This document shows positions 8,160-42,259 of a stretch of 64,000 bases of DNA, piece by piece. The notes under the pieces are model-generated. The model saw nothing but the letters and a program-made list of their open reading frames with translations, did not search any database and was not told the DNA's origin. How positions within the stretch are numbered: position 1 is the first letter of the stretch; each line of letters opens with the position of its first letter. The translations under genes were made by a program, and so were the position numbers. Source of the DNA: Dysidea avara (lineage: Eukaryota > Porifera > Demospongiae > Dictyoceratida > Dysideidae); assembly GCF_963678975.1 (NCBI RefSeq), contig NC_089272.1, positions 23,605,471 to 23,669,470 on the forward strand. The letters are read 5' to 3'.

Positions 8160-8281
8160 TACAAGTGATGCCTCATCAGGATTTTGGAAATTATGTTTAA
8201 CTGAAGATAGTAGCAGATGAAGACTTAAATCAGTTGAAAACTCCCATGGTACTGCCTATTTGCAAGCCTCTAGAAATAAAG
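8160..8281 (+). pseudogene. BEACH gene exon 1: pre-PH segment, in-frame TGA
   Basis: The acceptor AG is at 8158-8159 and the donor GT at 8282. The frame reads through 'SGFWKLCLTEDSS', matching the conserved 'FWKLD..ED' segment before the PH-BEACH domain of neurobeachins. A TGA at 8218-8220 stands where the family has Arg, one C-to-T change from CGA. The exon ends in phase 1, which fits exon 2. Confidence 0.7.
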
Positions 8282-8457
8282 GTATTAACACTGCTGTGCT
8301 TGGTTAGTTCTTCAGCATATGAGGTACTAAGCTGGTTGGTTAAATGTGAAATCAGCATACACTATTAGGAATGTAGCTGCTGGGCTCATCTATATTTAAA
8401 ATTTATGTTGATAGCAATGTAGCAATGTTGGCTGAAATGTTGTGTGTATTTTTGTAG

Positions 8458-8580
8458 TTGTTGCCGACACTTCAGATTCAGGCACAGTTCAAGTACAGCC
8501 AACCAGCTTTCAGTGGAACACATAGAATGAAGATATACAATAAGCGTTAATAGATGATGAGGATACCACTGAAAGCATTG
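8458..8580 (+). pseudogene. BEACH gene exon 2: acidic linker, TAG and TAA
   Basis: The acceptor is AG at 8456-8457 and the donor GT at 8581. The reading frame ends in an acidic run 'ALIDDEDTTESI' like the linker before the neurobeachin PH domain. TAG at 8523-8525 and TAA at 8541-8543 interrupt it; both are one C-to-T change from a Gln codon. Entry phase matches exon 1. Confidence 0.6.
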
Positions 8581-8645
8581 GTACGCAATTTGTGTATCAC
8601 ATTGTACTACATGTATGTGTTACCTTACATTTATATTAACTGTAG

Positions 8646-8769
8646 GTAGTTCATCTTAACTATGAGCTGCTCCATACTTCTAATGGCACATGCTATTCCC
8701 GGTACACTGACATTTGGCAAATCATCTTTTAGCTTCAACCCTAAAGACACAACCGAAGTTTCTAATTAT
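8646..8769 (+). pseudogene. BEACH gene exon 3: start of PH domain, one base missing
   Basis: The main frame contains 'AHAIPGTLTFGKSSFSF', aligning with 'APVVVAKGTLSITTTEIYF' of neurobeachin. Entry from exon 2 in phase 1 reads 'GSS' and then hits a stop; one added base near 8656 restores the frame and gives the phase-0 exit that exon 4 needs. Confidence 0.65.
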
Positions 8770-8879
8770 GTAAGATGTGCAATAGAATATGTATAACTCT
8801 AATATAATGTTATAGGCACCTTTGATTCCTAGCTAACTATGTAGTGTTTACATAATTTATAATTACTTGTCTCCATTAG

Positions 8880-8988
8880 CTGGATACGTCATGTGTTGAG
8901 AAGTGGTGGTATGCTGATGTGACTGCAGTGTTCTTACGGTTGTATCTTCACCAAAGAAGAGCTGCTGAAGTGTTCTTCTGTAATCAAA
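8880..8988 (+). CDS. BEACH gene exon 4: PH domain core
   Basis: Intact exon between AG (8878-8879) and GT (8989). It encodes 'EKWWYADVTAVFLRLYLHQR', matching the 'KW.FSEIRAVFSRRYLLQ' helix/strand segment of PH-BEACH domains. Phase 0 in, phase 1 out. Confidence 0.8.
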
Positions 8989-9708
8989 GTACAAGAAGAT
9001 ATTTGTTGTAGTTTAATGCCTGCTATTGTCCATATATTTAGTACACTATATGCTGCGAAGCATGAAATTAAACTTACATTACTAAGAAACTTTAATGAAT
9101 AAATATCTGATCGACACATGCTGTACACATACATAATTCCTTCCTGGAAAGTATCTCCACATTTCATTATGTGATCCCCATTTCCATTGCCTCCAAATAT
9201 AACTCCATGTTAATTTGAACTGGTTGTGTCTTCATACATGTACGTATATGTGGGATGTGTATCAGGTTGGTTGGCCGCCATGATACAAGAACTTAAGGTT
9301 GCAAAATTAGTGTAGCAGAATCCTATAGTTAGCTTTACAGAGCTATTTCTTATCATACTTTATAAGTTGAATCAAACTGTTAGCTTTGCACTATTTAACT
9401 AGCTTTATTCAGTGACTAATGACAGTGGTTGTGGATGGAGTCCATGGTGTCTTTGGAACTGGCCAGTTGGTCACATATGTTATACAGTACGGGGATCATG
9501 GAGGTTTGGATTGTCTTGCCCAAAAATATAAAAAACCTACCTCATTTTCCCTTCATAATGTGGCAGAATTGGCAATGTAGAACAGCCTCCAAACCCTCCA
9601 ACAAGTTTCTATATATATTTTTATTTAACCAATTCTCTCCTTAGGTTAACTTTGTCTTTTCTTTGTAATTTATTTTGGTGATTTTTACATCTGTGTGTTA
9701 TTATATAG

Positions 9709-9795
9709 TGGCTACTTTCTTTGACAACTTCCAAGCCCTGAAGCAGTTTGTAAAGCATTTGGAGTTGGAAAGTTGTATGGAGTACCTATTACAAG
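9709..9795 (+). pseudogene. BEACH gene exon 5: PH C-terminus, one base missing
   Basis: The first frame gives 'FFDNFQALKQFVK' and the next frame 'AFGVGKLYGVPITR', both collinear with neurobeachin 'FNFPDQATVKKVV..GVGTSYGLPQ'. The shift lies near 9751, where AAGCATTT looks like AAGGCATTT short of one G. Adding one base gives the phase-2 exit required by exon 6. Confidence 0.75.
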
Positions 9796-9945
9796 GTACA
9801 AAACAATGAATTTGTGAATATAATCAGCATTGCTGTAGTGTGTTTACATATGAATTTCCCTAGCAATTGTAGTAACTTTGTGGTGGTATACAGTGTGTGT
9901 ATTGTATTATGCATCTTTTTTTCATGTCAATTTCCATTGCCATAG

Positions 9946-10061
9946 GTCAATTTCCTTAGCTTCTTCATTGCAGCTACTTAAGAAATCTAATATGTCATCA
10001 AGATGGCAAAAAAGAGGAATGACGAATTTTGATTATTTGATGTTTTTAAATACTATATCAG
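9946..10061 (+). CDS. BEACH gene exon 6: BEACH domain start
   Basis: The acceptor is AG at 9944-9945; a later AG near 9988 was rejected because it breaks the phase. The frame gives 'SISLASSLQLLKKSNMSSRW' followed by the hallmark 'NFDYLMFLNTISG'. Donor GT at 10062. Intact. Confidence 0.9.
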
Positions 10062-10264
10062 GTATTTTGTAGCTTGTGTATACATTTTACATACAGTTTG
10101 CAAATTGTACATATCTCATAAATCTAATCAAGTACTGTATGTATAGTTTGTATTGATTTGTGTTTATATTTTTACTTGAGTCCATAGTTGAAAGTTTGGT
10201 TTGTAATTTACGTAACTGTTTACAGTAAATATTGCCAGTTTGTATTTCTATTTTCTGTCACTGA

Positions 10265-10396
<132 letters not shown>

Positions 10397-10537
10397 TGAA
10401 TGGAAATTTGTATCTTATAAAGCTAGATATTGTTAAGAAAAAAAGTAATTGTTTAAATTTAAAGTTAAGTTGCATTACAGTATCTCGTCATCTTTAAAAT
10501 GCAACTGAATGTATGTGCTGCATATCTTGTTTCACAG

Positions 10538-10675
10538 CCTATTGGCTTGTTGAATCCAGACCAACTAGAACAGTTCAAAACACGCTATGATTTTATGGAT
10601 GATGACATGCCAAAATTTCTGTTTGGAACTCATTACTCAACAATGGCATATACCCTACACTGGTTAATCAGAGTG
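10538..10675 (+). CDS. BEACH gene exon 8: BEACH core
   Basis: Intact 46-codon exon. It starts 'PIGLLNPDQLEQFKTRY' and ends 'GTHYSTMAYTLHWLIRV', where the family has 'THYSTATSTLSWLVRI'. Confidence 0.95.
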
Positions 10676-10728
10676 GTACGTTTGTACTATATGTAATTCA
10701 TTCTTACTGATTTTGATATTGTACATAG

Positions 10729-10838
10729 GAACCTTACTCATCCCTCCACATTGAGTTCAATGGAGGCTATTTTGATGATCCTATCAGAGTATTCTCTTCT
10801 ATGGAAGAAACTTGGAAGAAAGTACATCTGATTTTAGA
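10729..10838 (+). pseudogene. BEACH gene exon 9: BEACH core, frame conflict at 3' end
   Basis: It encodes 'EPYSSLHIEFNGGYFDDPIR' then 'VFSSMEETWKK'. The following conserved 'STSDFR' (family 'DTSDVK') is in another frame, and the good donor at 10839 (GTACGTG) leaves the wrong phase; one more base near 10820 would fix both. A weaker donor at 10822 (GTACAT) keeps the frame but drops the conserved segment. Confidence 0.8.
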
Positions 10839-10943
10839 GTACGTGTCCATTGTTTTATCAACTCTGTATTACTAGGGTCAAAATTAAATAACAATAATCA
10901 ATAGATTTACTGCTAGTTGAAAATACTAATGTCTATTTTGTAG

Positions 10944-10997
10944 GAGCTGATACCAGAGTTGTTTTTCTTACCACAGATGTTTGTAAATGATAACAAG
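10944..10997 (+). CDS. BEACH gene exon 10
   Basis: Intact 18-codon exon reading 'ELIPELFFLPQMFVNDNK', a BEACH signature (family 'ELIPEFYYLPEMFVN'). Followed by a GTGAGT donor. Confidence 0.93.
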
Positions 10998-11833
10998 GTG
11001 AGTGTTGTGTACAACACGAGCATGAGGGCTTTGTCTGAAATGTATGCCCGACTGCCTGAGGACTGCAGGCTCGAGGGCGGAGGGCAAATATTTCAGACAA
11101 AACCCGAATGCCCCATGTTAATATGTAACATTTCCCATCAGTATCAGGCTAATGGCCTGCACAGGGTGATCAATCACCCAAGCCAATATGAGTACAGCCA
11201 CTGAATATATTATATATGCATACCTAAAAATTTCGATTATGGGTCAGCAGCTACTGTAGTACATTCTCGGTATGATGATCCGACAGATCCTAGAGGTATC
11301 ATGATGAATTTCAGTTGTGCAAGTTTAGTGTTTTAATCAGTGCTATTGAATCATTTATGGAATAATTGATATATTGTAAGCTTGCTTATAGAGTGGTTAC
11401 TTCATGCAGAGTAGTAACATTGTGATGGGTGTGTGGTCTGTATTCAGAAACATGTGGAAAAGATTGGTGCAAAAGCTATATCACTAGTTCTCACCTTAGC
11501 CCAACATTTTTCAACTCATACGTAGGATAGCGAGAATAACAAAACGCTCTCCATCTGAGTGGTTTTTATGGCAAAACCCATATGACATGAGCATAATCGA
11601 TCCCCACAATTGATTTCAACCTTATCTCACTTCCCAGATGTAGTCTGGGCAGCTCTTTGATCTGAGATGTGAAAGTGTTACATGTGTGTTTATCCATTTT
11701 TACATGTGAACTTTCTAGTAGTCTGTATTTTGGATACACAGACGGATGGTTATGTGCATTTCCCCTCCGTAATCTTCATAATATTTTAATTGCTGCTCAC
11801 TGAACATTACCAGCTGTGTTTGTGTATTTTTAG
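10998..11833. other. Intron of the BEACH gene
   Basis: No coding or clear mobile element seen. Around 11010-11075 a GC-richer stretch ('GCCTGAGGACTGCAGGCTCG') resembles the hairpin found again near 43.1 and 44.75 kb and may be a fragment of that repeat. Confidence 0.4.
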
Positions 11834-12868
<1,035 letters not shown>

Positions 12869-13823
12869 CTAGCTTTTTTGTTTCGAAGATGGTGTATATG
12901 CAAGAGACTTCGACAATCCTGTTAAATCTTGTGGTGACAGTCGAACATAGCATAAGTAGGCATCACTTCTCCACCTGCCCAGTGCTTTTAAGTGTGAGTC
13001 ACTCACACTGGCCCGTTTGGCTGATGTAGCAGCACCAATTCTGATCTATGTGTATTAAACTGGTGGGGGTCCATGTGCAGCTCTTTTAAGGCTTTGTTGA
13101 GGGCTGAGCTAAATGACGCTCTTGTCAATGCCTTGTTGTTAGGCCACACAAATAGTGGTCCTGGGGTGCCGCCTCGCCTGACTAGGTACTGCACCAAGGC
13201 CTGGACTGGACGGATGGCATGGGTCATCTTGCCTAAACATATTTGTGTCCCTTTCCTAAACTGGTCTCCTTTTGACTGTTTAAGTGTGATCTGTACAAGT
13301 GTTGGAGAAGCTCTATTGTCTAAAGCTACATCTGATAAAAGCAAATCGGTTAAAGGGTCAAAATGGTCCGGTGACGATGTGGGTCCGGTGACGATGTGGT
13401 AAATTCATTGGCTCTAAGAAGTCCAAAATAGGCAAGGCAGCAGGCGGCCCAGATCATCACATCTCTGTAGTTGCTCGTGTGTTTTGAAAACACTACATGA
13501 AGATGCACCATAATTGGAAAAGTAATAAGCAACTGTTCCCTTGGTTCATGGGTAATTGCACATGATTTACGTATGCCTTTCAAAATGTAGTGTGATCTTG
13601 GTGTTGTTGGGGGCAATGATTCTCCATTTGTGTAGTGCAACTGTACCTCACAGCAGAGAGGTACACTTGTATAGTAGCATAAGAAAGCCTGTAAGCTAGC
13701 ATCAGAGCAAAAGGTGATGTACTTGCGGAGGCCAGCTGTGCAGGCTTTCTTTGTTGCTGCTGATATTCCTAAGTTGAAGTAGTTTTTTGCTGCTGCATTC
13801 AGTTGGAATAGTGTGGCTGACAA
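12869..13823 (-). pseudogene. DIRS tyrosine recombinase, two frameshifts
   Basis: The product would cut and join the circular element DNA through a catalytic Tyr. The N-terminal part (13823-13350) has the core-binding region and 'WAACCLAYFGLLRANEF', typical of DIRS recombinases. A 17-bp tandem duplication at 13367-13400 shifts the frame. The next part (13344 down) gives 'LVQITLKQSKGDQFRKGT' and 'ICLGK'. A second shift near 13046 falls in the conserved Arg motif; after it the reading continues 'RIGAATSA', 'LKALGRW' and a candidate catalytic Tyr in 'AYLCYV', ending at a TAG (12869-12871). The Arg and Tyr landmarks remain visible but not in one frame, so it is presumably inactive. Confidence 0.85.
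13367..13400. repeat. 17-bp tandem duplication breaking the recombinase frame
   Basis: 'TCCGGTGACGATGTGGG' occurs twice in direct succession (second copy with one change at the end). Seventeen bases is not a multiple of three, so it explains the frame break between the two recombinase parts. Confidence 0.85.
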
Positions 13824-13948
13824 GAGCTCTGTGGGTATAAGAAATCAGTAAAAAAAATTTTTTTTGGTGTAAACATGGCAGCCATGATAACAGTATTAAC
13901 AGTAGTACATGAATACATTAATGGTGTTAACAGCATATACAATTTCAA

Positions 13949-15465
13949 TCAAAATGATTGCCTATAAATGAATGATAAAGTCTTGTGAAAAAGTCGAAGG
14001 AAGTGGGGGGAGATCCAGTCAAGCCTGCAAGGAAAGATTAACTGGAAGGCTGTGTGGGGTATCACTGTAGGTTGATATGACAAGGTGGGAGTAACTTGGA
14101 AGGCCTGATCCAACCGACCACGAGAAAGGTGATCAGCAGTCACAATGATCACCCCCGGTAGGTGAGTAGCAGTAATGTAAATGTCGAAGTGAACAACGAA
14201 AAATGATAGGCAGCGGAGCAGATGCATTACAAACTTATCCTTACTTGAGCCTTTATTAATGGCAATGACTAAATTAGCGTTGTCACAATGGAAGTTAATG
14301 TGGTGTTTGGACAGATAAGGCCCCCATACAATGCAAGTGAAAATGATTGGCACAAGCTCCTTTGCCATTATCCCTATTTTGTACCATTCTGGGGGCCATT
14401 GCCACTGCAACCATTGGAGGTCCAACACTGCTGCACAACCCCATGCTCCTGAGGCATCTGTTTGGGCACAGAAATCCAGATATGAGACAGTTGGGTGTCT
14501 AAGAATACCGAGACCGTTCCACGATTGGAGAAATGTATGCCACCACAACAAATCGGACCTGAATGATGTGTTTAGCCTAGTGATGAAGTGCATCTCGTGG
14601 AGCTTAGCTGCCATTGAATACATTCTTGAGACAAATGCTCTGCCGGGACGCACATCTTTTGTGGCATGTTGGAGAGTGCCTACTAGCGATAAAATCTGCC
14701 TCTTTCTAGCTTTCTTCCTGAGGAGCCATGTCGTCAACAGTTGCTGTATTCTAGTGAGTTTATCTTTTGGTAGCATAATTTCCATTCTTTCAGTGTCTAA
14801 TATGATTCCCAGGAATGACAAGGATGTTGAAGGACCTTCTAGTTTATCGGGTGCTAAGGGGACGCCAAGATAAGAAACACCTGCATTTTCCATGATCCAG
14901 GCTAAAAGGTTATCGAGAACATTAAATAATTTTGGTGTTGAATGAAGACCAAAGGGGATACAATGATCAATATATATACTGCCTCTCTACCTCACCCTTA
15001 GTAAATGTCAGTCTGCTGGGTGTTCAGGTAGTAGGCGAAAGGCACTCTTGATATCAATTTTTGCCAACATTGTATTTTTTCCTGACTCAAGTATATTTAA
15101 TATGGCATCATCTATGGTTACATAGGTCAGGCTGCACAGCTGTGAAGGTATGCCATCATTCACACTACTACCTGCTGGGTAGGACAGGTCTGTAATGAGC
15201 CGCCACTTATCCTGCTGATGGTTCTTCAGGATGACCCCGAATCTTTTTATGTGAACACCCGGACATATTGACAGTGGGTATGGGCCCAACATCCTGCCTA
15301 GTAATAGTTCATTATGAAGATAGTCATCCACAACTGTAGGATGATTTGAAGGTTCCTTTGTGCTGATTGTGTACCACTCCCATTAGAACCCACTCTAAAG
15401 CCAAGGGAGATACTCTGCAGGAAATACTGGACTAGGTTTTGATGTGGGTGATGCCTTAAGTGATA
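13949..15465 (-). pseudogene. DIRS reverse transcriptase/RNase H lacking the YxDD box
   Basis: Minus-strand segments read in order: 'LVQYFLQSISLGFRVG' (about 15440), a frame change near 15340, 'ELLLGRMLGPYPL' and 'WRLITDLSYPAGSSVNDGIP' with 'LAKIDIKSAFRLLP' (15331-15008), a break near 15000, then 'DHCIPFGLHSTPKLFNVL'. From 14893 a 314-codon stretch is open. In it 'AGVSYL' runs straight into 'GVPLAPDKLEGPS', whereas DIRS relatives carry roughly 30 residues there including the catalytic Tyr-x-Asp-Asp. The RNase H part is well kept: 'QTDASGAWGC', 'MAKELVPI', 'FHCDNANLVIAINKG' and 'VTADHLSRG' hold the expected acidic residues. Polymerase activity should be lost. Confidence 0.85.
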
Positions 15466-15787
15466 TAGCCAAGCATTGAGATGAGTGGAGTGTGAATGTA
15501 GCTAACTTCTACAGGAATTTGATGAAAAGTGGGACAGGAGTAAGGTGATTCTGCCATTGCTGTAGCCACTGAGGGTATGGTTCCAGTATGCGAAATAACT
15601 TTTCAAACATGTCCTGACATACTGTCCGGACATTGTGAAAGTTGAGTGGACATTAAACAATTTGACCGTACTTTTTAACTTTTGTTGTTTCTCCTTTCCT
15701 GTGTTTTTACCAAGTTACAGTAGATATGTTTGCTTCTGGGGCCACCCATGTACTGTAGAGCTGATTACTACTCAACCACTCACACTG

Positions 15788-16309
15788 CAGTGTTGGGAGT
15801 AACGCGCTACTTATGTAACGCGTTACGTAATATTATTACTTTTGTGGTAACAAAGTAATATAACGAAATACGCTATGAAAACAGGTAATATAATGCAAGA
15901 TACTTTACTTACAAACGTAACGCGTTACCTAAGTAATATAATTACTGTAACGAGTCTAATATGACGTAATATTATTATTAAAAGTAACGAAGTTACTAAT
16001 CTCGTTAGTAATCCTCTGAGTAACGCCTAACCACAACGAAGTAACGAAGCCTACTGAATGAAGCTTATTCACTAGCTTCTTACTTATAACCAAGGTTTGC
16101 ACATTGTCCAACAACGCAATCATGTCACGTGATAAGGTGGTAGTTTCACACGTGACAGCTTAAGGCTGTGGACACAAAGTAATATAATATGTAATATTAT
16201 TACAGTTACTTTATTTTATGGGTAATATGTAACTGTAACTAAATAGTTCTGTTGCAAGTAATATGTAATATGTAACTAGTTACTTTACAAAGTAACTTGC
16301 CCAACACTG
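15788..16309. mobile_element. Non-autonomous hAT-type element, 522 bp
   Basis: The ends are 'CAGTGTTGGGAGTAACG' on the left and the inverted 'CAGTGTTGGGCAAGTTAC' on the right, classic hAT-type terminal repeats. Flanks share a 7-bp direct repeat 'CACACTG' (15781-15787, 16310-16316); hAT elements normally duplicate 8 bp. The interior is rich in TAATATTA and GTAACG motifs with no reading frame. A second copy in opposite orientation lies at 43635-44162. It is nested in the DIRS remnant and so is younger than it. Confidence 0.88.
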
Positions 16310-16748
16310 CACACTGATACTACAGTATTTTAAAGGGTAACTACTGGTCACATAAAAGAGCTTCTATGGAATCAATTCTATTACAAGGAAAGGAGTCATA
16401 AGGACTTCTGTCAAGGTCTCCTACATAGCTATATGTGGTTAAACTTTGCTTATGCTACCATTGTTTAGAATACATTTGTACTGGCTTTACCCTAATACAG
16501 TGTATGAACATAAGAGATGCACTGATGTCTTGTCCATTCTAGCTTAAAATATAAACTTGTACAAGTGATGATGAAAACCACAAGTAAAAGTACTACTGGA
16601 AATCAGTTTATAAATACATTTTACTACTGCAGTACAGGTCTGAGACAAGTAGGCTGGCACAGCAGTTAACCTCAGAGTACATCTTGGGAATACCTTTGTG
16701 GTCACCACAGACAAATAACTTAATTACATGTCAATACCATCATGTCTG

Positions 16749-16896
16749 GCCTCCCTCCTAGCCCAATAAACTCTGCTACACTTTGAAAGGACACTATTTC
16801 TGAACAAATTCAATTATGGCTTGCCTCCCTCCTAGCCCAATAAATTCTGCTACACTTTGAAAGGACACTATTTCTGAACAAATTCAATTATGGCCT
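16749..16896. repeat. 74-bp tandem duplication
   Basis: A segment beginning 'GCCTCCCTCCTAGCCCAATA' is present twice in a row (starts 16749 and 16823) with about one difference. It lies between DIRS ORF1 and the nested hAT-type element. Nothing else is recognised between 16310 and 17160. Confidence 0.85.
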
Positions 16897-17159
16897 GACA
16901 ACTGATGTAATTGTCTGGTGTCCTGAGGTTATTTCGCACACTGTGGTTCTGATTTTGTATCCCTTCGATGGATTGGCTCTAGGACACCATTTGGAATTAT
17001 AAATAATTATGTATATGAATTATTAAGGTAGAAACCTTATAACAATTACATGTTATTGAACAGCACAGCAAAAAAAATTGATTGTATATTGTACAATATG
17101 AGTACACATACTAGTAGTTAAATGAAATAGTGGCACGCTAAAAGTTTTTTGACCGCAGT

Positions 17160-18560
17160 CTACATCATTGAAACAGTGGTCTAGGCCATTGGTTTGTAGT
17201 CGACTGCTGGGCAGGAGGGTTAGGACAGAACAAAGCCTTATGATGGATGTCCTTCACTGCCGAATTAAAGGAACAGTAATAACACACATGTTCATAACGA
17301 CAGTTTGGGAAAGTGCATCCCTGAGCGTGTTGTTCATTCCATTGATGGCAAATGAATCATCAGTAGCCTGGAGCTTGATGCGTTTGGTCACGTGAGCTGG
17401 AGGTTGAACTTGAGGCAAATTCACAGTCTATGGATTGGTGAAATAAACTAAAGCAATGTTTGCAGCGATTTACTTTGGCTTGGCCTGTAAAAGCTAGGCT
17501 CCAAAGTGTTGAATCTGTGTTAGACCACTTGCAGCTTGGTTAGGAGGCAGCGAGCTGTCGGAATCGTCGATCATATGCCAGCCAGCGATTATTCTGGTAT
17601 TCATTGCTGGCTTCCAGCATTAGGATCTGGTAACCCATCAAGTCCGGAATATGCTTCTTAGAAACGACTGACACATAAATGGTGAATGCTTGTAGCCATT
17701 CGGATATGTTGGTAATTGATCTTTGTTTTGGCTTGGATCCTGCTGTCTCCTCAAAACCGAAGTGGCTTGGAACAGGGTCTCCTATCTCTATGAATTTGCC
17801 AGCTTCAATCTTTTCAACCAGGTTTGATGGGACTGGTGGTATAGTTGAACTTGCTATTAGAGGTGCAGACAGCTGGTTGGTAGGACGAGGGGCCTTCTTC
17901 CGTTATGATGAAAGTACGTTGACATGCTCCTGATCTAGGAAGGTGCAGGAGAGAGGTAACACCATTATAGTAGTAGAGTGCAGAAAGAATGGGGCTCAAT
18001 GGTATGTCCATTTATATATATATATATATTTTTTTTGTTAATTATCTCTTGGCTAGACAGTTGGGCAAGGTAGTCTCGGTGTATGGCTTCATGGTTACCT
18101 AATTGTCTACCTAATGCCCACAACACTGCTACAAATATCCCTACCATAATTACCATCAACACAAACACATTATACTTGTAAGTGTTCGAATCGCATAACG
18201 AAGCGAGATGTGACATACGGCGTAACCGCAAGAAGCTTACTTTGCATTACGCTAATTATCACGCACAGTGCCACGTCGTCACGCCAGCTGACTTTGCATT
18301 ATGCCAATTATCACGCACAGTGCCACGCTGTCACGCCTGATGCCACACGATTCGAACAGATAGGCAAGCTACTCACCTAGGTGGGGATTATCTTGGCTCT
18401 TCTCCTGAGGGTCCTCACTTTCCGGTTACTAATGACTGCGTCAACAATTTTTGGAATATTGGCCTTGGTTAATGGATTGTCATCGAATTCTTCATCATCT
18501 TCACTGGTTGAGGAGTCACTCTCTGGTTCATGGATACAGTGTATTTCAATAGAATTTCAT
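17160..18560 (-). pseudogene. DIRS ORF1 (Gag-like), interrupted
   Basis: The minus strand encodes an acidic N-terminus 'ESDSSTSEDDEEFDDNPLTK' then 'IPKIVDAV' (about 18560-18377). Further down come 'NLVEKIEAGKFIEIGDPVP', 'EWLQAFTIYVSVVSKKHIPD' and 'LMGYQILMLEASNEY' (about 17830-17545), and a Cys/His-rich tail with 'RCKHCFSLFHQSIDC' and 'CTFPNCRYEHVC'. This resembles DIRS ORF1 products of corals and sponges, presumed structural proteins binding element RNA. A TAA in the middle, another after 'FRQLAAS', further stops, and a separate inverted-repeat element at 18183-18358 disrupt it. A GTGAGT sequence after the N-terminal part could be a splice donor, so a host exon cannot be excluded for that piece. 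Confidence 0.65.
18183..18358. mobile_element. Small inverted-repeat element with 52-bp internal duplication
   Basis: 'TGTTCGAATCG' at the left end is mirrored by 'CGATTCGAACA' at the right. Inside, a segment starting 'ACTTTGCATTA' occurs twice (18239 and 18291). No target duplication was recognised. Confidence 0.55.
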
Positions 18561-19140
18561 GGCAAACTATAATTTTGCAAAAACGGCCGGTTTTCACTCA
18601 GTGGGACACATTATTACATGGCACTCAAATAATTGAGCGTTTTAATATTAGCATAATTGTGGGCTTGCCATTGGGACTGCAGCAATCGCACTATAAAGAT
18701 CAGTGATGCTGAATAACTTTTGCTAAAGTAATGTCAAAAATACATTAAGACTGTTCCTAAGACAAGCACAAGAAGAAAGGTAAAGGAGTAGTGCTAGGAG
18801 CAAATTTTGTCGGAACTCCAAAAGGCACATGCCATGGTTGATCATGACTTTGTTGCTGTAGCATAAACTGGTAGTTATATGGTTGTGTGATGCATCATTT
18901 AGCCTGTAGCCATTTGACTATAGCCGTCCTTCTACGTCAGAGTACACTGAGACACATACAAATACACAAGTACAAAACTGAAAAACATACAAGACATGAC
19001 AAATACAAAGCAATACAATTAAATAATAGACAAATTAACTATTATTAGTCATATAGTGAGTCTTCGTTAAAGTAACAAATTCTCCATGCTTGTGGGGCAC
19101 TTCACTATGATCTTAACAATGATTCATGTGTCTGTTGTAG
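18561..19140. other. Intron sequence, nothing recognised
   Basis: The distal part of BEACH-gene intron 12. No coding or repeat signal was identified. Confidence 0.5.
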
Positions 19141-19234
19141 GAAGAGCTGCTGTGGAAGCACAGAATCTATTTATTATTTAACTTACCCTGGATGTATTAA
19201 CTTGGAAACTCTTGATGATGCAAGTTTAAAGAAA
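19141..19234 (+). pseudogene. BEACH gene exon 13: end of BEACH domain, one base missing
   Basis: It joins exon 12 in phase 1 and reads 'GRAAVEAQNLF', then in the next frame 'YYLTYPGCINLETLDDASLK'. The family reads '[23 protein letters not shown]'. One base is missing in TTTATTAT (position about 19181), where the family codes His. Adding one base also yields the phase-0 exit needed by exon 14. Confidence 0.8.
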
Positions 19235-19979: not shown

Positions 19980-20081
19980 CAGTGAAACCTGTCTAAAGCG
20001 GTCACCTTCGGGCCAGAAATATTTGGCCTTTATAGAGAGGTGGCTGCCTAACTCAGGTGACCATTAAGGGAGGTTCCACTG
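19980..20081. mobile_element. 102-bp pogo/Tigger-like MITE
   Basis: Ends 'CAGTGAAACCTGTC' and 'GGAGGTTCCACTG' are inverted repeats of the common pogo/Tigger type, flanked by TA on both sides (19978-19979, 20082-20083). Confidence 0.75.
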
Positions 20082-20368
20082 TACTATCAACAAAACTGTG
20101 GTCACCAAATACTGATAGTTATAAGTTACGTATTTATGTACAAATTAAAAAATAATTGCCCTAATAGCATTTTTGTCCTACATCTTTCGAGTCTAATTTT
20201 AGAAAAAGCCCCAGATAACTGTATTTCCAATATTATTGTAATTGTAAACATGTACAGTGTGTACATATCAACAACAAAATGCATTTCTGTGCATAGCAAC
20301 GTACATAAATTTTACAGTGTGATAGGGTAGTTAAATTTGTAAAGTTTAAAGTTTAGTACATAAAATAA

Positions 20369-20818
20369 TTATTCTGCAAGTTTTTTTAGCATCCAAACTT
20401 TAGCTTCAGTGTTGGGAATGTTGAACTTCCACTGCACGTAGGCCCATTGTCTGCTATTCATTTTCCATTTAGTGTGTCCTGTTCTAGTCAGCATTTCATT
20501 AAACCAACGAAGAATATCTGTTGAATCAGCCACTCCTTTGTTGCTATCAAAGCACCAATGATCATGAAAGCTTGAAGCTATTAGCTTTTCTGTCTTGTTC
20601 AGTGGTCCTTGCAATCCTTCACAATGCTTTCTACCTGTCACATTTATATCCATTTGTAAGCAAAATTGACGATCAATATATGGAGAATCGTAAAACTTCA
20701 CAGAAACAGTGTCACTAAAAGTAACATGCTTAAGAACCTGTAGAGAAGCTTTAGTTCCACGGTGATCGTCACTTCTCAAGATGCCACATGAGCTATGTTC
20801 TTTGCAAGCCATCTGCAA
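20369..20818 (-). CDS. Uncharacterised 149-residue protein with PP1-docking-like motif
   Basis: A single open frame with ATG and stop lies antisense in the intron between exons 13 and 14 of the BEACH gene. I do not recognise a family. Residues 30-34 (KHVTF) fit the protein-phosphatase-1 docking motif RVxF; a hydrophobic-basic 'VKF' at 40-42 and Arg50 follow at about the spacing of the RVxF-phi-phi-R string in PP1 regulators such as GADD34. The C-terminal half is rich in Trp and Lys ('WAYVQWKFNIP'). No signal peptide or membrane segment is seen. It could be a small intronless gene, a retrocopy or a chance frame; coding potential was not computed. The PP1 link is inference from a short motif. 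Confidence 0.4.
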   Translation of the reverse strand: MQMACKEHSSCGILRSDDHRGTKASLQVLKHVTFSDTVSVKFYDSPYIDRQFCLQMDINVTGRKHCEGLQGPLNKTEKLIASSFHDHWCFDSNKGVADSTDILRWFNEMLTRTGHTKWKMNSRQWAYVQWKFNIPNTEAKVWMLKKLAE

Positions 20819-20869
20819 CTTTCAACCAACTGATGCCTTCCTTCCCAGTTTGAATTAGATATACTGCTG

Positions 20870-21185
20870 AGAGGAGTAATATATAGAAAATTCTTTTCTC
20901 TCAGAAATCTCAGAATCTCTCAGGGCCATGTTAAACCTGTGCATGTAGCATTTACTCAATGAATGTAACTCTGAGAGATTTTATTGTGAGAGATTTTAAG
21001 ATGTTTGTGCTGAAGGTGTTAAAATATCTCACAAAAAAATCTCTCAGCTATGCACAGAGGTGTGAAACTTTCACAGAAATCTCATAGCTACCCAGTGTTT
21101 ATTCAGTAAGCACAATTCTGAGAGATTTTATGTATGCCTTGTACAGGAAATATCAAGATTTTCTCACAAGAATCTGTCAGTTGTG
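20870..21185. repeat. Cluster of inverted GAGAGATTT motifs
   Basis: The motif 'CTGAGAGATTTT' or its complement 'AAATCTCTCAG' occurs at least eight times in both orientations, giving several possible hairpins. An A-run follows near 21305. Possibly a decayed foldback element. Confidence 0.55.
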
Positions 21186-21464
21186 CCCTAATATTTGGTT
21201 TAAAAAGGGAAATACTTGAATCCAGTAGTCCAGCCCAGTGATTGTATACAACCCTAAAGATGCAAAAAATTTTCACCTCAAAGTTTTGGATGGTGGCAAT
21301 CCACAAAAAAAAAAAAAAAAATTGAAAATCCTGCTATACGGTACTTAATTAAGAATGGTCCAGTTTCCATTCCTATAAAATAAACTTTAGTACACTTATT
21401 TTATCAAGACATGGACTACGTGTTAGCTGTGTAATTATTTAATGCATTGTGACTTTGTATTTAG

Positions 21465-21551
21465 TTACTTGAGGAACAGATAAAGAGTTTTGGTCAAATG
21501 CCAAATCAACTGCTGAAAAATCCACACCCACTTAGAAATCCACCAGTAAAG
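21465..21551 (+). CDS. BEACH gene exon 14: linker after BEACH
   Basis: Intact 29-codon exon 'LLEEQIKSFGQMPNQLLKNP' followed by 'HPLRNP'. It matches neurobeachin '[20 protein letters not shown]'. Confidence 0.92.
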
Positions 21552-21730
21552 GTACACTATGTTCTGTATGGAGCCAAAATACTTCACGTAGCTGTAGCAA
21601 ATGTATAATTGCATTTCCATTCAGTAGATACTTGTCAATAATGATGCATTCAACTTTGTGTTGTTGTTTTTTTCTAATAAATTCCAACAACATTTAATAT
21701 TATGATTATTTCCTTTCCACATTATTTCAG

Positions 21731-21890
21731 AGTGTCTTCCAGCTACTAGTTCTTTTGAGCAAGCTTGAAGTCAGTCCTGATGTAGCCATTATTATGTTAC
21801 ATCCTGAGGAGACGTATTCATATCCAAGAACTATTTTGTCTCTGTCAGCAAGTTACGTATACTGTGCAGCTAACTGGAATGTTACTGAAG
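21731..21890 (+). CDS. BEACH gene exon 15: start of WD40 region
   Basis: Intact exon. 'EETYSYPRTILSLSASYVYC' then 'AANWNVT' aligns with 'TIPAVVTVTCSRLFAVNRWHNT' in neurobeachin. Phase 0 in, 1 out. Confidence 0.88.
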
Positions 21891-21943
21891 GTACAATAAT
21901 TGCTTAACCATTTCTTTGTGTTGTGTTTATTACTAATTTACAG

Positions 21944-21988
21944 TGAAGCGGCAGCCAACATGTTTGCTTGAAGTGAATGTCATAAACA
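21944..21988 (+). CDS. BEACH gene exon 16 (45 bp)
   Basis: A small intact exon reading 'VKRQPTCLLEVNVIN' with phase 1 on both sides and a GTAAGT donor. It bridges exons 15 and 17 in frame. Confidence 0.8.
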
Positions 21989-22076
21989 GTAAGTACTAGT
22001 GATGTTTCCTGTATGTTAATGTTATCTGTAGTTCACCAATTCAGTTGTTAAGTTTGTATTTACTTTTCTCTTTTAG

Positions 22077-22211
22077 GCTTGAAGCAACGGGGAATTTTGT
22101 TTACTGAAGCTAGTGATACAAAGTTGTTTTGCACTGCTACAATAGTCAACCACTTTTTGTTCACATGTGGTGCGTCTAAGAACAGCTTTCAGATTTATAA
22201 CACCGAAACAG
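22077..22211 (+). CDS. BEACH gene exon 17: WD40 blade
   Basis: Intact. 'TIVNHFLFTCGASKNSFQIY' and 'NTETG' match neurobeachin 'NRYILICGFWDKSFRVYSTETG'. Donor GT at 22212. Confidence 0.92.
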
Positions 22212-24185
22212 GTACTGTGATATTTGTACTGAGAAGGTTTTGTATTTATTTTAGTAAATACCTCTGTATTTCAGAATACCTCTTTAATGTGATTCACTAT
22301 GAACCTGTAATGTATGCAATACCTGATAGAGATTTTGGTGCAGTAGATGGTTTTTTTTCCAATTCCCTTCCTTTGTATAAAGTTGTCCCACTTAAAGTGC
22401 CCCACATACAAGCTGTAAGGAATATGACGTGCTTTCTTCACTCAGTTATATTTGGTTTGTGTGTATTATATTTTATGTTTGAAGAAACTTTTGGGCACAG
22501 GCTTGAGCCATTTATGCTCTGTGAGGAATGCTCCAATATTTCGTCCCTTGTTCTTAAGATAGTTGGTTGATTGCTCTGTTTACTGTGTTGAAATGAACAC
22601 ATTTAAAAAGTATAGATCAGCTTGACTGTTGTATTACAGTATTTGCTCTATTATTATTAATGTATGCTCTAAAGCTTACTGAGGTCTCAAAATCATACAC
22701 TGTGTGAAATTTCTCTTTCCATGGATACTGTCTGTTATGCTCTTACACCGTTGTACACCTTATTGTACCCCTCGTATTGATGACTGCTCTATTAGAGTAA
22801 TCTCGTGTATATCTTTGGGGTATCAGTGAGTTAATTGATTACTATAATTAATGTGACAAAATTTTTGAAAATCAATTTTTGTTCACAACACTGAAGTTGA
22901 CTTTCACCATCAATAGATAGTCACACCAATACCATAGCCATGCTGCTGATTTACTAGGACTGTTTTTCACAACTGGATTTCTGGAGACATGTGCCAGCCA
23001 CTTGCACCTTGGAATGCCACTGGCCAGATGGAACATGAGGCTAGAGTAATTGGCACCTTTGGACAGTTTCCCAGATGTTTGCTGCATTCATTTCTTTTAC
23101 TTTGAGTGGCACTGCATGGTGGTATTAAGGCTGGAGACTCCAAATGACCTGCTCGGCCACTTTCTGTTGATATACCAGACCACCCCTACCACCATCCATG
23201 GTTGTGTTCTTATAGTGAGTCGCGCGGCCAAGAAACTACAAAGCGCATGCCCAATTAAAAGACGCGCGGCCACTACTGTGAGTTATTTACGTGTAGGGCC
23301 GGTTTCGCAATATTAGTCCTAGATTATGCAACATCTCTCAATAGATTTGTATTGCGTTACATGCTAAAAAAATCTTTAGGAGTCGTCATCATAGTTTTCT
23401 TGCGACCTCGCTAAAATAAAAAAGTAACCATCGCAAAATAAAAAATAGGCGTATTTCACTTTATTTCTCTACCTTATGTTACAACTACTGTCACATTATA
23501 CCAGTCAACATAGTTGTGTTTGTAATGTTTACATAGTCCATCTAGCACTGACATTATCCAATCCTGGTTTGCCTATACGCGTATTTTCTTCAATCAAACC
23601 TCTAATCCCTACAATAACTTTTAAAGACACGACGTGGACACAAACTCTAATGCCTGATAAACAAGTTGTGACAGCGTGCTGAACCTTAAGTTCCCTAGGG
23701 ATGGCGTTTTAAGCAGAAATCTTTTAAATTCCATTTAGTGCCACACCCCATGCGAGCATTTATAAATCTCCAGTTGTCTTATGGTGTGAACAACAAAATC
23801 ACTAGTGAAGGTGCTTTAAGCAAACTCTTCAATTCTCTATTTACATGTAATTTTTAATAGATTAACCACAAAGGGCGGTAATAAGGTGAATACAAAAGGT
23901 AACAAGCCTTTAGGGGTTACCACCTCTATGTAGTGCGTACCATGTAGCTTGTGTTGTGGCTTTCATTAAGTATTATGCACACACAAATGGTGCAACAAAA
24001 TTTTGTAATGGATTGCTCGAATGTAGTTGGTGGTGTTGTGGCTCGAATGTGGTTCGTGGTTTGCCAGTGGCCATGTATGAGTTGGGGTTGTTCCACACAA
24101 CTTTCATGATGGCCATGAAAATTTCTTGCCATATGGTAAACATACAACAATGTGTAACAACGTTAATCAACATCACATCAAGACT
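22212..24185. other. Intron with no clear features
   Basis: First part of the 6.3-kb intron 17. A copy of the dispersed CTCTATTAGAG motif lies at 22780-22804. Near 23218-23280 'GCGCGGCCAAGAAACTACAA' resembles the outer arm of the 27.5-kb palindrome. No gene was recognised. Confidence 0.45.
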
Positions 24186-25127
24186 TGACTAAAAATAGTT
24201 CCAACAATAGTGATGATTTCTTGTATGTCAGCATGACGATACTGAGACCTGTAAAAGAATAAGCAGGCACTGAAGTTAACCTTAAATTAAACACTCATGC
24301 AACTGACCTGGAACATCGGTCGCAACACCAAAAACACTTGTTTCGATATCTGATGACACAATCCAGCAGGCACTGAATTAAAAGAGAATGTACAAAAAAT
24401 CAATATGCCGGGCTGTATCAACAATAGCATGGATAATCAAAATGAACAAAAATTATATCCCAGGCTAAGTGAATGAATAACATAACTGTTGGGTAAGCAT
24501 GTCAAACCTGAACATTAGGACATTAGTCAAACAAAGGTACGCCATCACAACTTGGTCATAATACAATGTTTGTACCACTGGACTTCACACTGGTTGCCCA
24601 AAAATTGTGCCATTCCGGGACAACAGCATAATTATGAAACAAATAGTTACTACAACACAGAAGGCTTACTGTTGCACTGTCTACACTGATATACCATAAT
24701 TTAAAAACATAACAGGTGGGCATTAAATACAATACACTTAACATCTGGGTACTAGGAAAAGATTACTAACATCACAACATGTAAACTGACCTGGAAATTA
24801 ACACCCTTGATGCCACTACAGTCTACACTGGATATTTGTTTGAACCCATCAACACTATGCCTGATACATCTGAATAGACTGACCTGCAAATTCACATCAC
24901 TAGTATACAGTGATAATTGATAACTACAAAAACATCAATTGCAATAATACGATTCTTCTGTACGTCAACTGACCTGAAAATCATGACACTCAATACCAAG
25001 ACCTGTAAAAGAATAAGCAGGCACTGAAGTCAACCTTAAATTAAACATACATGCAAACTGACCTGGAACGTCGGTCGCAGCACCAAAGACACCTGTTTCG
25101 ATATCTGATGAAACAATCCAGCAGGCA
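24186..25127 (-). other. Duplicated short exon-like units
   Basis: On the minus strand a 65-bp block occurs twice (25063-25127 and 24308-24372). It is bounded by 'TTCAG' upstream and 'CCAG|GTCAGT' downstream and reads 'ACWIVSSDIETGVFG' or 'ACWIVSSDIETSVFG' without stops. A 29-bp block (24974-25002) reads 'LGIECHDFQ' and also ends at CAG|GTCAGT. Further sites 'TTCCAG|GTCAGT' and 'TTGCAG|GTCAGT' follow near 24790 and 24890. The final piece (ending at 24248 on the plus strand) reads into a stop. The two halves are a direct duplication about 755 bp apart. This could be part of an unknown minus-strand gene with tiny exons, or a repeat that mimics splice sites. Confidence 0.4.
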
Positions 25128-26740
25128 CTGAATTAAAAAGAGAATGTGCAAAAAATCAATATGCCAAGCTGTACCAATAATAGGATGGATAATCAAAATG
25201 AACTAAAATATATATATATCCCATATGCAGGTTAAGTGAGTAACATAACTGTTGGGTAAGCATGTAAACCAGAACATTAGGTCATTAGTCAAACAAAAGT
25301 ACGCTATCACAAACTGGTCACTGATAATTGATAACTACGAAAAGAACAATTGCAATAATACAATTCCTCTGAACGTTAACTGACCTGAAATTCATGACAC
25401 CTGTATCTTTGTTCTTGCATGGTCTCAACTTACATATGTGTTAAATACAATACACCTGAAGTCTGGAATATGAAAAATATGATATAAGCATTATTCCACA
25501 CTGATATAGTAATAGATTATAGGATGTTGTGGAACTTGCCTAAACGTGTAAACTTAAACATGAGGACAACTGCATAATCTGGACACTTGGAATTGTCCAA
25601 TACCTGATGAACAAGTTGGTACTAATGACATTCACTTCAACATTTTATCCCAGCTTGGTGAATCTCTTGTAACTGGTGTTTATTTTCCACCTGCAACCAA
25701 AGTTCTACATTTCTGTGGCTGAGTGTACATAAACTGACCTAGAAAATCAGTATGCCATAGGGGTATGGAAATGGTTCCTTTCCTTCTGTTGTGACATTAC
25801 TTACAGCTGACTGGTAAATGATCATCGATGTCCCCGTGGACCCCAACAATGAGTATATCAATAACTTCACAAATTGGAATGAATTTCCTTTCAACATGTG
25901 GTGGAATGAATTTCCTTTCAACATCTGGTGGACAGGTCCAAAAACCCTATCGCACAAACACGGTGAATCAGTGTGTGGCGATGTGACACGTTGCACAAAC
26001 TTCACTCCTCATTTCGTTAGCATTCAAGACCGGCATATATCATAGAGTACCTCAGTATTCTTGACTCTTACTTCTTCAAGCGTTGCTCAAGTGATGTAGT
26101 TTCTCACAAGGGGCTCGAGTTTCTCATTAAAGTCGAGCCGATTAAAGTACACCTCACCATCCAGTTACATTCTTAAACCATTCAATTTAAAACCACGTAT
26201 CACGAGTGTCCGCTTAAGGTAATTAGGGACTTTCCATGAGATTTCCCCTAAATAGATCACGTGTTAGTTGTCAATCCGGTGGATTCTGGTGGTATACATG
26301 GTTCAACAATGTGGTAAGTGTACTTTAATATAGTATAAGCTGTCAATAATTGTTTGTGCACTGCTAAACTAAGTTATTTTTGTGTGATAAGCATGCTTGA
26401 GGAAGGGTCTGGGGGACGAGACTAATGTTTTGACAGCAGTTGATGATGGCCAGTCAAAGAACTGCGAGAAGAACTACTGTGATGGTGTGATAGTAGAGAA
26501 AAATTCCCACCTCTATAGCTCTGCCTAGGGGCATTAACTAGCATTATCTACAGCTACTATATTATGTTGCTGATATGTACATCCGGTCCTTGAATAAAGG
26601 TGAAAGTGGTAGTAAGGCTCAATCCTATTATTCTGCTGAACAGGCAAGGGAGTCTGGGACTCTTGGGGCATGCTCCCTCAGGAAAGTATAAGTACTACAA
26701 CTTTTTTTGTTTTAATTGCTTCATCAAGATAAAAATTTCA
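25128..26740. other. Intron sequence with a possible minus-strand exon
   Basis: Minus-strand 26005-25739 is open and contains a 27-bp direct repeat reading 'MLKGNSF' twice; it ends at TAG directly followed by GTCAGT, the same ending as the neighbouring exon-like units. Nothing else was recognised. Confidence 0.3.
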
Positions 26741-27103
26741 GTCAAAAGGTGATGATCAAGGCTCTGGTCTTATGCACTGGTTGGAGTGGTTGTATCAATA
26801 CTGCACTGTGACATCCTTGAGGGGTTAGTGCTGGCATTGTCCATGGCAATACTATTCCATCTCCCCGAGTCTTGATGATTGAGTCCTCCATTCCTTTCTC
26901 TGCTGCTCCAATCCTGAAGTTGTGACCACAGTCAAAAGGGGACGATCAAGGCTCTGGTCTTGCATCTATACTGTACTGCAACACCCTTGAGGGGTTAGTA
27001 CCGGCATTGTCCGTCGCAATACTGTTCCATCTCCCATATACAAGTCTTGATGGTTGAGTCCTCTATTCCTTTCTCTGCCGCTCTAATCCTGAAGTTGTGA
27101 CCA
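26741..27103. repeat. Tandem duplication of about 190 bp
   Basis: Two adjacent copies begin 'GTCAAAAGG..GA.GATCAAGG' (26741 and about 26932). They share 'CCTTGAGGGGTTAGT', 'CTATTCCATCTCC' and 'CCTGAAGTTGTGACCA'. The second is shorter and diverged. Confidence 0.8.
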
Positions 27104-27477
27104 AAATATTAAAAAATGGTTATATCATGATAAATGATTATGGTGATAACAATTACAAATGTATTTATAGCTGTGTAGCAACTGTGAACTAATTAGGCAC
27201 TTGCAAGTTTAATTAGGTGTCTGAAGCATTTAACATGCACAGATATGAGATATATTTGTCACATGCAGGCAGTAAAGATAGATTTACTCTAATAGAACAT
27301 TCATACTACACCGTAAATTCATACTTCTGAATTTATGGTGTTATGAAACAATCATTATTATGTATGGATTTTACTGACTCCAAGATAATATTCTGCATTA
27401 ATGTTAATTGCTCATTTCCAAAAAATTACCTTTTAAACCGGCCAAATGTAGAGTCTATCACTGACAAAAATGAGTGA

Positions 27478-28290
27478 TATCCACCTCAAAAACACCTTCG
27501 CTGTAAAAAAGGCGCGCCCAAGAAACTACAAGTACCTGGAACCCAATGTAAAAAACAAAAAGAAAAAAACAGCTCAGCTGAAGTGAAAAGTAACTGGTAA
27601 CTTAAAGAGCTGATATCTGAAGCGGCCAAGAATATAATTACTAAAGTTTAATCCATGCAAGAACACCTTGGCTATAAAACAGGTGTGTACATGAAAGTAA
27701 CTGGCAACTGAAATGGCTGATATCTGAAGCGGCCAAGAATGAATGGTCATATACAACTAATTCAAAAATTTAACACTGAACCTTTATAATTCAGCTGTGT
27801 TCTATATTCACTCTTGCTGCATTGTAAAGTAATTTCTTTTAACTCTAATTGGCTGGTAATTTGGTCGCCTTTTTTAATAGTATAATAGAGCAAAAAAAGG
27901 TGGCCAAATTACCAGCCAATTAGAGTTAAAAGAAATTACTTTACAATGCAGCAAGAGTGAATATAGAACACAGCTGAATTATAAAGGTTCAGTGTTAAAT
28001 TTTTGAATTAGTTGTATATGACCATTCATTCTTGGCCGCTTCAGATATCAGCCATTTCAGTTGCCAGTTACTTTCATGTACACACCTGTTTTATAGCCAA
28101 GGTGTTCTTGCATGGATTAAACTTTAGTAATTATATTCTTGGCCGCTTCAGATATCAGCTCTTTAAGTTACCAGTTACTTTTCACTTCAGCTGAGCTGTT
28201 TTTTCTTTTTGTTTTTTACATTGGGTTCCAGGTACTTGTAGTTTCTTGGGCGTGCCTTTTTTACAGCGAAGGTGTTTTTTAGGTGGATTA
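27478..28290. repeat. 813-bp near-perfect palindrome (foldback element)
   Basis: Two arms of about 400 bp are reverse complements, joined by a loop of about 20-25 bp near 27885. Outer ends read 'ATCCACCT' inward on both sides with only a few differences. Each arm contains 'TTGGCCGCTTCAGATATCAG' twice, 107 bp apart. There is no coding frame apart from mirror images. It sits in intron 17 of the BEACH gene. Likely a long-TIR foldback transposon; no clean target duplication was seen. Confidence 0.9.
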
Positions 28291-28505
28291 TAGATACTGC
28301 CATGAAAATAGCTACTCAAAATTATGGTTATATCAGTAGCTAGCTTACTATGGTCTAAAGTCTTATACACTATGGTTATAGTTGCATTCATGGTGAAATT
28401 TCAACTCATAGCTTTTGGCATACTGTATTGACATGTTTATAATTGCTCTCTCACAATGTGTACATTGACAGTTTTCCACATTAGATTATATATTTTTGCA
28501 AACAG

Positions 28506-28697
28506 ATCAACTAATTCAGAGTGTATTTGGACACCACAGTACAATGTTATGTTTGGATTATAATCAAGACAGAGGATTATGTTCCAATAATGAAGATGGT
28601 CTGATTGCAAGTGGATCATGTGACTGCACTGTAATGTTGTGGAAATGGAGTGGACAAAAATGCCGAATTATTAGTTCAACGTCAGAGTCTATGAAAA
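28506..28697 (+). CDS. BEACH gene exon 18: WD40 blade
   Basis: Intact 192-bp exon. 'LIQSVFGHHSTMLCLDYNQD' and 'GLIASGSCDCTVMLWKWSG' match neurobeachin 'IVFGHWDVVTCLARSE' and 'YIVSGSRDATLLLWYWSG'. It has a GTAAAT donor and joins exon 17 in phase 1. Confidence 0.94.
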
Positions 28698-29132
28698 GTA
28701 AATTATTGTGTGATTATTTGTGCATTGTCTGTTTATCTGTTTCTATTTAGTAAATTCATACAGATATTGATTATTGGCTTTGTACTGTTTCTATTTAGTA
28801 AATTCATACATATATTGACTATTGGTTTTGTACTGTTAGGAAAGTCTATAGTTTGGCAGTCCTCTTCAGTCCACGTTTATAACATTTCTTAATTTGCTGC
28901 CTGCTAGCATGTTAACTCCACCTGTTTTGTAAAAATGCCTAGAGCTACAGTAACATTTTCTCCACTTATAAACACATTTCAGTATACTTATTCATTGTTC
29001 ATCTGTCCAATACTATGTACAGCAAAATGAAATCTTGTAGCATTCCTCAACACTGCATTTACTCCTCAAAAAGTATTAAGATGTAGCCTGCTGTGTGTAT
29101 GTACATGAATTACATACTTTCCATTATATTAG

Positions 29133-29231
29133 ATACTACTGAACCAATAGCAGTACTAACTGGTCATCATACTCCAGTTGTATCTGTTGCACTGAACTGC
29201 AGTTTGGGAATAGTTGCAAGTAGAGCTCTGT
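29133..29231 (+). CDS. BEACH gene exon 19: WD40 blade
   Basis: Intact. 'EPIAVLTGHHTPVVSVALNC' and 'SLGIVASRA' match 'PRAVLTGHDHEVVCVSVCAE' and 'LGLVISGA'. GTAAGT donor at 29232; phase 1 on both sides. Confidence 0.93.
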
Positions 29232-29750
29232 GTAAGTCATGAAATAAACTAAAACTCTAAACTACAATCTATTAAAATAATTCTGGTAGACTAGATCTAC
29301 CAGAATTATTTTATGTTGTAATGCAGTGTTTGGTGTTTGTACTGTTGTCAGCAGAAATACTGTATTTATCCGCTGAGCTCAATAAACACCAGGTCCTAAA
29401 TGCAGGCCACAGAGGCAATACCTTAATGCAAGATCTTGTCTGAGATTATAATAGTAGGACAAGGCTTACTACAATTAATGAAACTCGTGACTTTTCAAAG
29501 GGATGTCAACAGCTAGATATATACTATAGCTCATAAGGCTAAACATATCTTTGCATAAGCTATAGCTATGGATATGCATTGTGAAATATGTATTGACAGT
29601 GCAATACAACACCATACAATTAAACTATATGATTTTTGACCTCCAGAGATTTCTATTGACATTAATGTTGTGGATTGAGTCAGCAACACTGTTTGTTATT
29701 ATGCTGCTAGAGTATATGGCTACTCTATTGGAGTATCTCAATCTCTAAAA

Positions 29751-30375
29751 TGTGACCGGATCTGTGACAACCCAGCATAATGGCGTATTTTTTTAAATCT
29801 TTATTTTTGAATATTTATAATCTACTTAACCAAGTATATGCTCTCTGGCCAAGTTTCAGCCTCGTATGCCAACAACTTTTGGAGCTAGGGTTACAGTCCT
29901 ACTATAACAACAACAGAAAGATCGATTTGTACAGCAAGTATTAGGAAAATAAATTACTGGTACTTACAAAAATTGTTGTAACTTACGAAAACAATGAAGT
30001 ACAGAGTTGCAACATGCACCATCATGTTTACCATTAATAGGGGAGTCCAGCTTTTCCTTCTACCACCTTTCTTCACTACATACAGAGACAAAATCAGTGA
30101 AGAAAGATCAATCGCATACGATTGCTTCTATGTGACATAAACAAATGCCCATAACTCGTGTATCGTTTAGCCTACTGCAAGGATTTTCGAACTCCCCTTG
30201 AGTAGGTGAGTAAGATTTTATCATTAGACCCTTTCTTCACAATTAAAGAACAAAGCATTTAAAAGTTTTACGGAATTTTTTTAATTACACAAATATTTTA
30301 CCCATTGCAATCAATGGCTTATATTGAAAATTTAGGCTTGTACCATTATGCCAGTTTTTTGCAAATCCGGTCACA
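29751..30375. mobile_element. 625-bp terminal-inverted-repeat element
   Basis: The left end 'TGTGACCGGATCTGTGACAA' and the inverted right end 'TGTGACCGGATTTGCAAAAA' match for about 30 bp with gaps. It has no coding capacity. It is related to the element at 39708-40699, sharing the ends and parts of the interior. The flanks are A/T-rich and the target duplication is unclear. Confidence 0.7.
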
Positions 30376-30846
30376 AATTTAGAGTTCTCATAGTTTTCCA
30401 TGTTCCCCTTGTGCCATATTCCTATATGGTATCAAGAAAAGCTTTCAGTATATCATACACAGACATAATCTTCACTAAGATAATTTGAAATATGTTTCAA
30501 GTGCCTCACAATAATCAAGACTGTGTAACTGGCCCACCTGCTAGAAATACAATTGAGCATAACAAATGCAGGCTTTGTTTGTTAAGTAGCAACACTTGAA
30601 AAAGATAAACATACTCTAATAGAACATTCACCACATTAAAATGTAACATTAGCTAGTGTATCATGTGAACCTACTCGGGACATAATATTGTAGACAAACA
30701 TCTTATAAGCACATAAGCAAGTTTAATACATCACACCTAGAAGTGGTAAAGAATTGATATGAGTATTGTAGAGTACCATATAGTAATTATTCTGTAACTG
30801 TGTTTGTGACTCAATTGATCAGTTAGTATGCTATATCTTTACCTAG

Positions 30847-31061
30847 CTGCTTTTGCCTTACTGCACAACACTAAAGGAGACCTATTATGCAAGCTTTCAA
30901 CTACAAGTGATGATGTTTACAATGTTCTTCCCAAATCCACGATGATCACTAATGATGAAAATGTGATAGTTCAGTATGTCAGTGGAGATGGTGGATTAAT
31001 AATCAGATATTCTTGCAATGGACAAAAATTATCAACGTGGACTCTAAAAGAAAATATTTTG
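30847..31061 (+). CDS. BEACH gene exon 20: WD40 region, last exon found
   Basis: The acceptor AG is at 30845-30846 and phase 1 entry reads 'SAFALLHNTKGDLLCKLS', matching 'CLVHTITGDLLRALEG'. 'VIVQYVSGDGGLIIRYSCNG' and 'QKLSTWTL' match 'CIIYYERGRFSNFSINGKLLAQ'. Donor GTATGT at 31062, phase 0. The family has about 90 more residues; I could not find them in the next 8 kb. Confidence 0.88.
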
Positions 31062-31094
31062 GTATGTAAAGCAAAATAATTATTTTGTGATGCA

Positions 31095-31990: not shown

Positions 31991-32030
31991 TTCAAGTCAT
32001 TGTAACTCACCAAGGGTAGTGAGCTAACTA

Positions 32031-33904: not shown

Positions 33905-34084
33905 TTAGCTATTATTTAATGTATGTTAGGCTATCAGTGTAGGTCACTGGTAGACCCTCAGAATTATTATTCTGTAAAACATTATTATTATTATTATTAT
34001 ATGCTTATCAAAATATACCAAAGGCAAAGGTTTTTTCTTAAGCGAACTAGAAACGTTTCTGCGAAAAAATTAGGGTTGTAGCTG

Positions 34085-38511: not shown

Positions 38512-38796
<285 letters not shown>

Positions 38797-42257: not shown

Positions 42258-42259
42258 TA

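Follow-up and report, generated by a model that had tools for sequence, protein, structure and literature searches.

A probable disabled copy of an LRBA/neurobeachin-type BEACH gene in the sponge Dysidea avara

A 20-exon gene that by its sequence is of the LRBA/neurobeachin type, with PH-BEACH, BEACH and a partial WD40 propeller, was identified in a 64,000-nucleotide stretch of the D. avara genome (hereafter the window). Its reading frame is disabled in the assembled sequence, as judged from the breaks in its exons, the phases of its introns and a search for frame-keeping splice paths. I consider it probable that this BEACH locus is a pseudogene or null copy, unprocessed (its introns are still present) and fairly young, which would mean that the breaks exist in the living genome.

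The original prediction of a BEACH-WD40 chain at 8160-31061 was confirmed. All 20 exons could be rebuilt, every one bounded by AG acceptor and GT donor sites, and together they amount to 2295 nt, of which exons 1-13 make up 1362 nt and exons 14-20 933 nt (Table 1). For domain scoring the chain was translated straight through, with X placed at the breaks. In Pfam, the whole chain matches BEACH (PF02138) at 367.2 bits, preceded by PH-BEACH (PF14844) at 35.1 bits (cut-off 27.5). The neurobeachin propeller (PF20426, cut-off 50) scores 47.8 bits in the whole chain and 51.1 bits alone, covering profile positions 85-270 of 350, and exon 1 carries a DUF1088 match (profile positions 98-129 of 170) that at 18.3 bits falls below its cut-off. 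The best solved structures are those of LRBA (396 bits) and neurobeachin (NBEA, 390 bits), entries 1t77 and 1mi1, and the end of DUF1088, PH-BEACH, BEACH and WD40 follow one another here in the same order as in these proteins. The locus differs from them in its broken frame and in BEACH sequence, which is 54% identical to LRBA and 53% to NBEA. Of 228 columns compared in BEACH in which LRBA and NBEA agree, 139 are identical in this copy, so any decay is young or slight.

Table 1. Exons of the LRBA/neurobeachin-type gene, in positions of the window
Feature	Position	Strand	Content
Exon 1	8160..8281	+	DUF1088 end; in-frame TGA 8218
Exon 2	8458..8580	+	linker, phase 1-1; TAG 8523, TAA 8541; without Pfam match
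Exon 3	8646..8769	+	PH-BEACH; frame change ~8656, avoidable with acceptor 8650 and altered exon 2
Exon 4	8880..8988	+	PH-BEACH
Exon 5	9709..9795	+	frame change ~9751 (robust)
Exon 6	9946..10061	+	BEACH start
Exon 7	10281..10393	+	BEACH
Exon 8	10538..10675	+	BEACH
Exon 9	10729..10838	+	BEACH; frame change ~10820, avoidable with donor 10821
Exon 10	10944..10997	+	BEACH
Exon 11	11834..11932	+	BEACH
Exon 12	11982..12054	+	BEACH
Exon 13	19141..19234	+	BEACH; frame change ~19181 (robust)
Exon 14	21465..21551	+	BEACH end
Exon 15	21731..21890	+	after BEACH, before the propeller match
Exon 16	21944..21988	+	part of the AG/GT chain
Exon 17	22077..22211	+	WD40 propeller
Exon 18	28506..28697	+	WD40 propeller
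Exon 19	29133..29231	+	WD40 propeller
Exon 20	30847..31061	+	WD40 propeller; last exon found

A further difference from LRBA and NBEA is that neither the domains upstream nor the propeller's C-terminal end were found in the window, a weak absence. Pfam scans of the three plus-strand frames detected no upstream family domain in 1-8160, and the window may not reach these domains; nor did they detect a propeller end or downstream exons in 31000-40500, 40500-50300 and 56200-64000, the BEL retroelement interval (50300-56200) being left out. These absences are weak because a control scan of 24000-33500 recovered just one of the three known WD40 exons (18-20). A truncated gene copy is possible. Most of the first 8160 nt is filled by a tandem array (1-7690) of dozens of head-to-tail units of 112 or 122 nt with a higher-order pattern, and a candidate extra exon picked out by eye at about 7735-7844 gave no Pfam match. 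At the other end of the gene, intron 17 contains a large foldback (27479-28288) with arms of 325 and 90 nt, the 325-nt arms being 98% complementary, and a second inverted repeat starts 55 nt past exon 20. To find close relatives for a dN/dS comparison, viral_contigs and genome_contigs were searched with the BEACH protein and with an alignment of three sequences; this returned 1, 25, 99 and 48 pattern matches, none of which was confirmed by tblastn.

The three in-frame stops that had been proposed, one in exon 1 and two in exon 2, are all present in the claimed frames. Each of the four frame changes (exons 3, 5, 9 and 13) amounts to the absence of a single base; beyond it the reading returns to the family-like frame, and the phase of the following exon agrees only when the missing base is allowed for. 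Exons 14-20 are, as predicted, clean, with zero breaks in 933 nt. Thus all seven breaks stand in the assembled sequence, but two of the frame changes depend on the choice of splice sites. The change in exon 9 is removed, along with a short and weakly conserved loop, by an alternative donor at 10821 that scores similarly (donor score -1.0 versus 0.0 for the modelled donor), and the frame of exon 3 is kept by using acceptor 8650 together with an altered exon 2; both solutions were found at all three settings of the path search described below. The robust breaks number three: the TGA of exon 1 and the frame changes within exons 5 and 13.

Although open to doubt, exon 2 is probably real. It has no match in Pfam, and when it is joined to exon 1 the DUF1088 score stays at 18.3 bits. 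Of 3000 intronic stretches drawn, 1.3% attain its codon score in the model frame, against 1.4% for exon 1. The claim that all three stops lie one C-to-T change from the codon expected in the family holds in part for exon 1, where DUF1088 prefers arginine in this column (21.9 bits versus 18.3 for X), but DUF4800 prefers methionine (18.6 versus 13.9 for X), and a single step separates TGA from two different arginine codons. It does not extend to the stops of exon 2, for which no residue can be called expected because the exon has no family match.

Could the locus still be read through other splice sites, yielding a shortened in-frame protein? Besides the avoidable changes in exons 3 and 9, exon 2 can be skipped with the frame preserved, since it is 123 nt long and in phase 1-1. 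However, when the best stop-free, frame-keeping route across exons 1-14 was sought at three settings, the paths scored 355, 376.5 and 386.5, versus 474 codons in the model, and required 8, 7 and 9 splice sites, respectively, from outside the model. The exon 1 stop was escaped only by excising part of the exon, exon 5 was retained only if its first part was dropped, and exon 13 was retained either by losing its first part (two settings) or via a 4-nt exon within a retroelement (one setting); what exons 5 and 13 lose in this way is conserved. Expression through other sites is accordingly improbable, and because even the best frame-keeping paths need 7 to 9 alternative sites, it is unlikely that the assembled locus makes a full protein. 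A broken retroelement lies in intron 12; its RNase H-like match, at 19.3 bits, falls below the cut-off of 24.8.

Are the breaks then a product of the assembly? A uniformly poor assembly is unlikely, as the original prediction argued from a nearby BEL-type element (50127-56627, minus strand). The BEL frame is indeed open over 1948 aa (5.8 kb), its two 236-nt LTRs are identical, and the bound on the break rate in the window predicts fewer breaks than are observed. This bound, which presumes an even error rate and that the frames at 39180-39767 and 58271-59113 are genes, was taken from 8208 nt of unbroken open frame, summed over BEL, exons 14-20, 39180-39767 and 58271-59113 (no Pfam match). The upper 95% rate is 0.365 per kb, at which the 1362 nt of exons 1-13 should contain 0.5 breaks, whereas 3-7 are seen; at this rate the probability of three or more breaks is 0.014 and that of seven or more is 1e-6. 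The sequence of the BEL element thus looks accurate, but since identical LTRs point to a recent insertion, the element is young and its intactness is no yardstick for relative decay. Directly before its LTR lies a perfect palindrome (49599-50096) of two 249-nt arms, 100% complementary and with no spacer, which may be a mobile element of recent origin or an artefact of assembly. The frame at 39180-39767 weakly matches a death domain (21.4 bits, under the 22.6-bit cut-off), and other features of this part of the window are a minus-strand reverse transcriptase split across at least two frames (35936-37238; 78.9 and 26.5 bits) and a long GT/CA dinucleotide run (38450-38840) that appears as open frames on both strands.

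A local cluster of errors is possible, and the main rival to a pseudogene is an intact gene whose apparent breaks stem from local errors of the assembly consensus, for example in a stretch with poor read support. I regard this as rather unlikely. Single-base losses would account for all four frame changes, and read-consensus error produces changes of this kind too; the BEACH residues are well conserved; and errors of homopolymer length make up most of those left over in long-read bacterial assemblies, according to one published account (PMC8812927). Set against these points are the bound of 0.365 per kb, the identical 236-nt LTRs in the same window, and the nature of the breaks, three of the seven being stops rather than losses. 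Furthermore, homopolymers of 11 T, 17 A and 17 C persist in the window, so long runs have not all been collapsed.

All breaks fall within the 5' 57% of the exon sequence, the last at 1309 of 2295 nt. If breaks fell at random, a clean end this long on either side would have a probability of 0.040 for all seven breaks, 0.12 for five (without the exon 2 stops), 0.37 for the three robust ones and 0.63 for two, and the 5'/3' split was itself picked post hoc, after the data had been seen. The crowding of breaks in the first half is thus weak evidence of anything special. Nor did the codon score or the domain matches give any sign of better 3' preservation: the score per codon, a weak measure, is 0.074 in exons 1-13 and 0.005 in exons 14-20, and the propeller tail was not found. 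I call the codon score weak because it partly reflects composition, because several exons score higher in another frame, and because training on one half and testing on the other yields values just below zero in both directions (-0.021 and -0.043). Poor scores in the model frame are seen in exon 3 (-0.29) and exon 17 (-0.15), and another frame outscores the model in 8 of 22 segments, including exons 1, 3, 8, 9, 14 and 17 and the segment 5a. Across the halves of exons 5 and 13, the model frame is favoured in three of four, the exception being 5a (-0.01 versus 0.08 in another frame).

The original prediction also proposed that the WD40 half has decayed less or is still used, and this found no positive support. 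In one version, the BEACH half would be dead and exons 14-20 would have been kept, while the 5' half decayed, as an independent propeller gene driven by a promoter of its own in the region of exons 13-14. The 933 nt without breaks and the clean-end probability at seven breaks speak for such a gene, but that probability is no longer small for the robust breaks, the codon score is lower in the 3' half, and the propeller match does not reach past position 270 of 350. I therefore consider a separate WD40 gene very improbable.

At this point, a pseudogene fits best, as the original prediction had it. It is supported by the exon breaks and their phases, the path search, the accuracy bound for the window, the broken retroelement frames in intron 12 and the lack of an upstream family domain on the plus strand of 1-8160; against it stand the well-kept BEACH and the frame changes, all of them equivalent to single losses. 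Like other unprocessed pseudogenes, whether duplicated or unitary, the locus retains its introns and has stops and frame changes in its exons; it differs from them in that its frame changes are solely equivalents of single-base loss. Larger indels are usual in old pseudogenes, and there are none among the four frame changes here. On the pseudogene reading, constraint would have been lost across the whole gene copy, and chance would have put the breaks into the 5' part. A transcript spliced as modelled would meet a stop in exon 1, ahead of both PH-BEACH and BEACH, so that its degradation is to be expected.

The locus thus gives the impression of an ordinary gene copy that has been disabled, belonging to the LRBA/neurobeachin family of animal membrane-traffic genes. 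It also serves as a caution that breaks crowded in one half of a gene may stem from chance, from the choice of splice sites or from assembly. Finally, should the breaks prove real and this be the animal's sole LRBA/NBEA gene, it would be noteworthy that a trafficking gene so widely kept had been lost.
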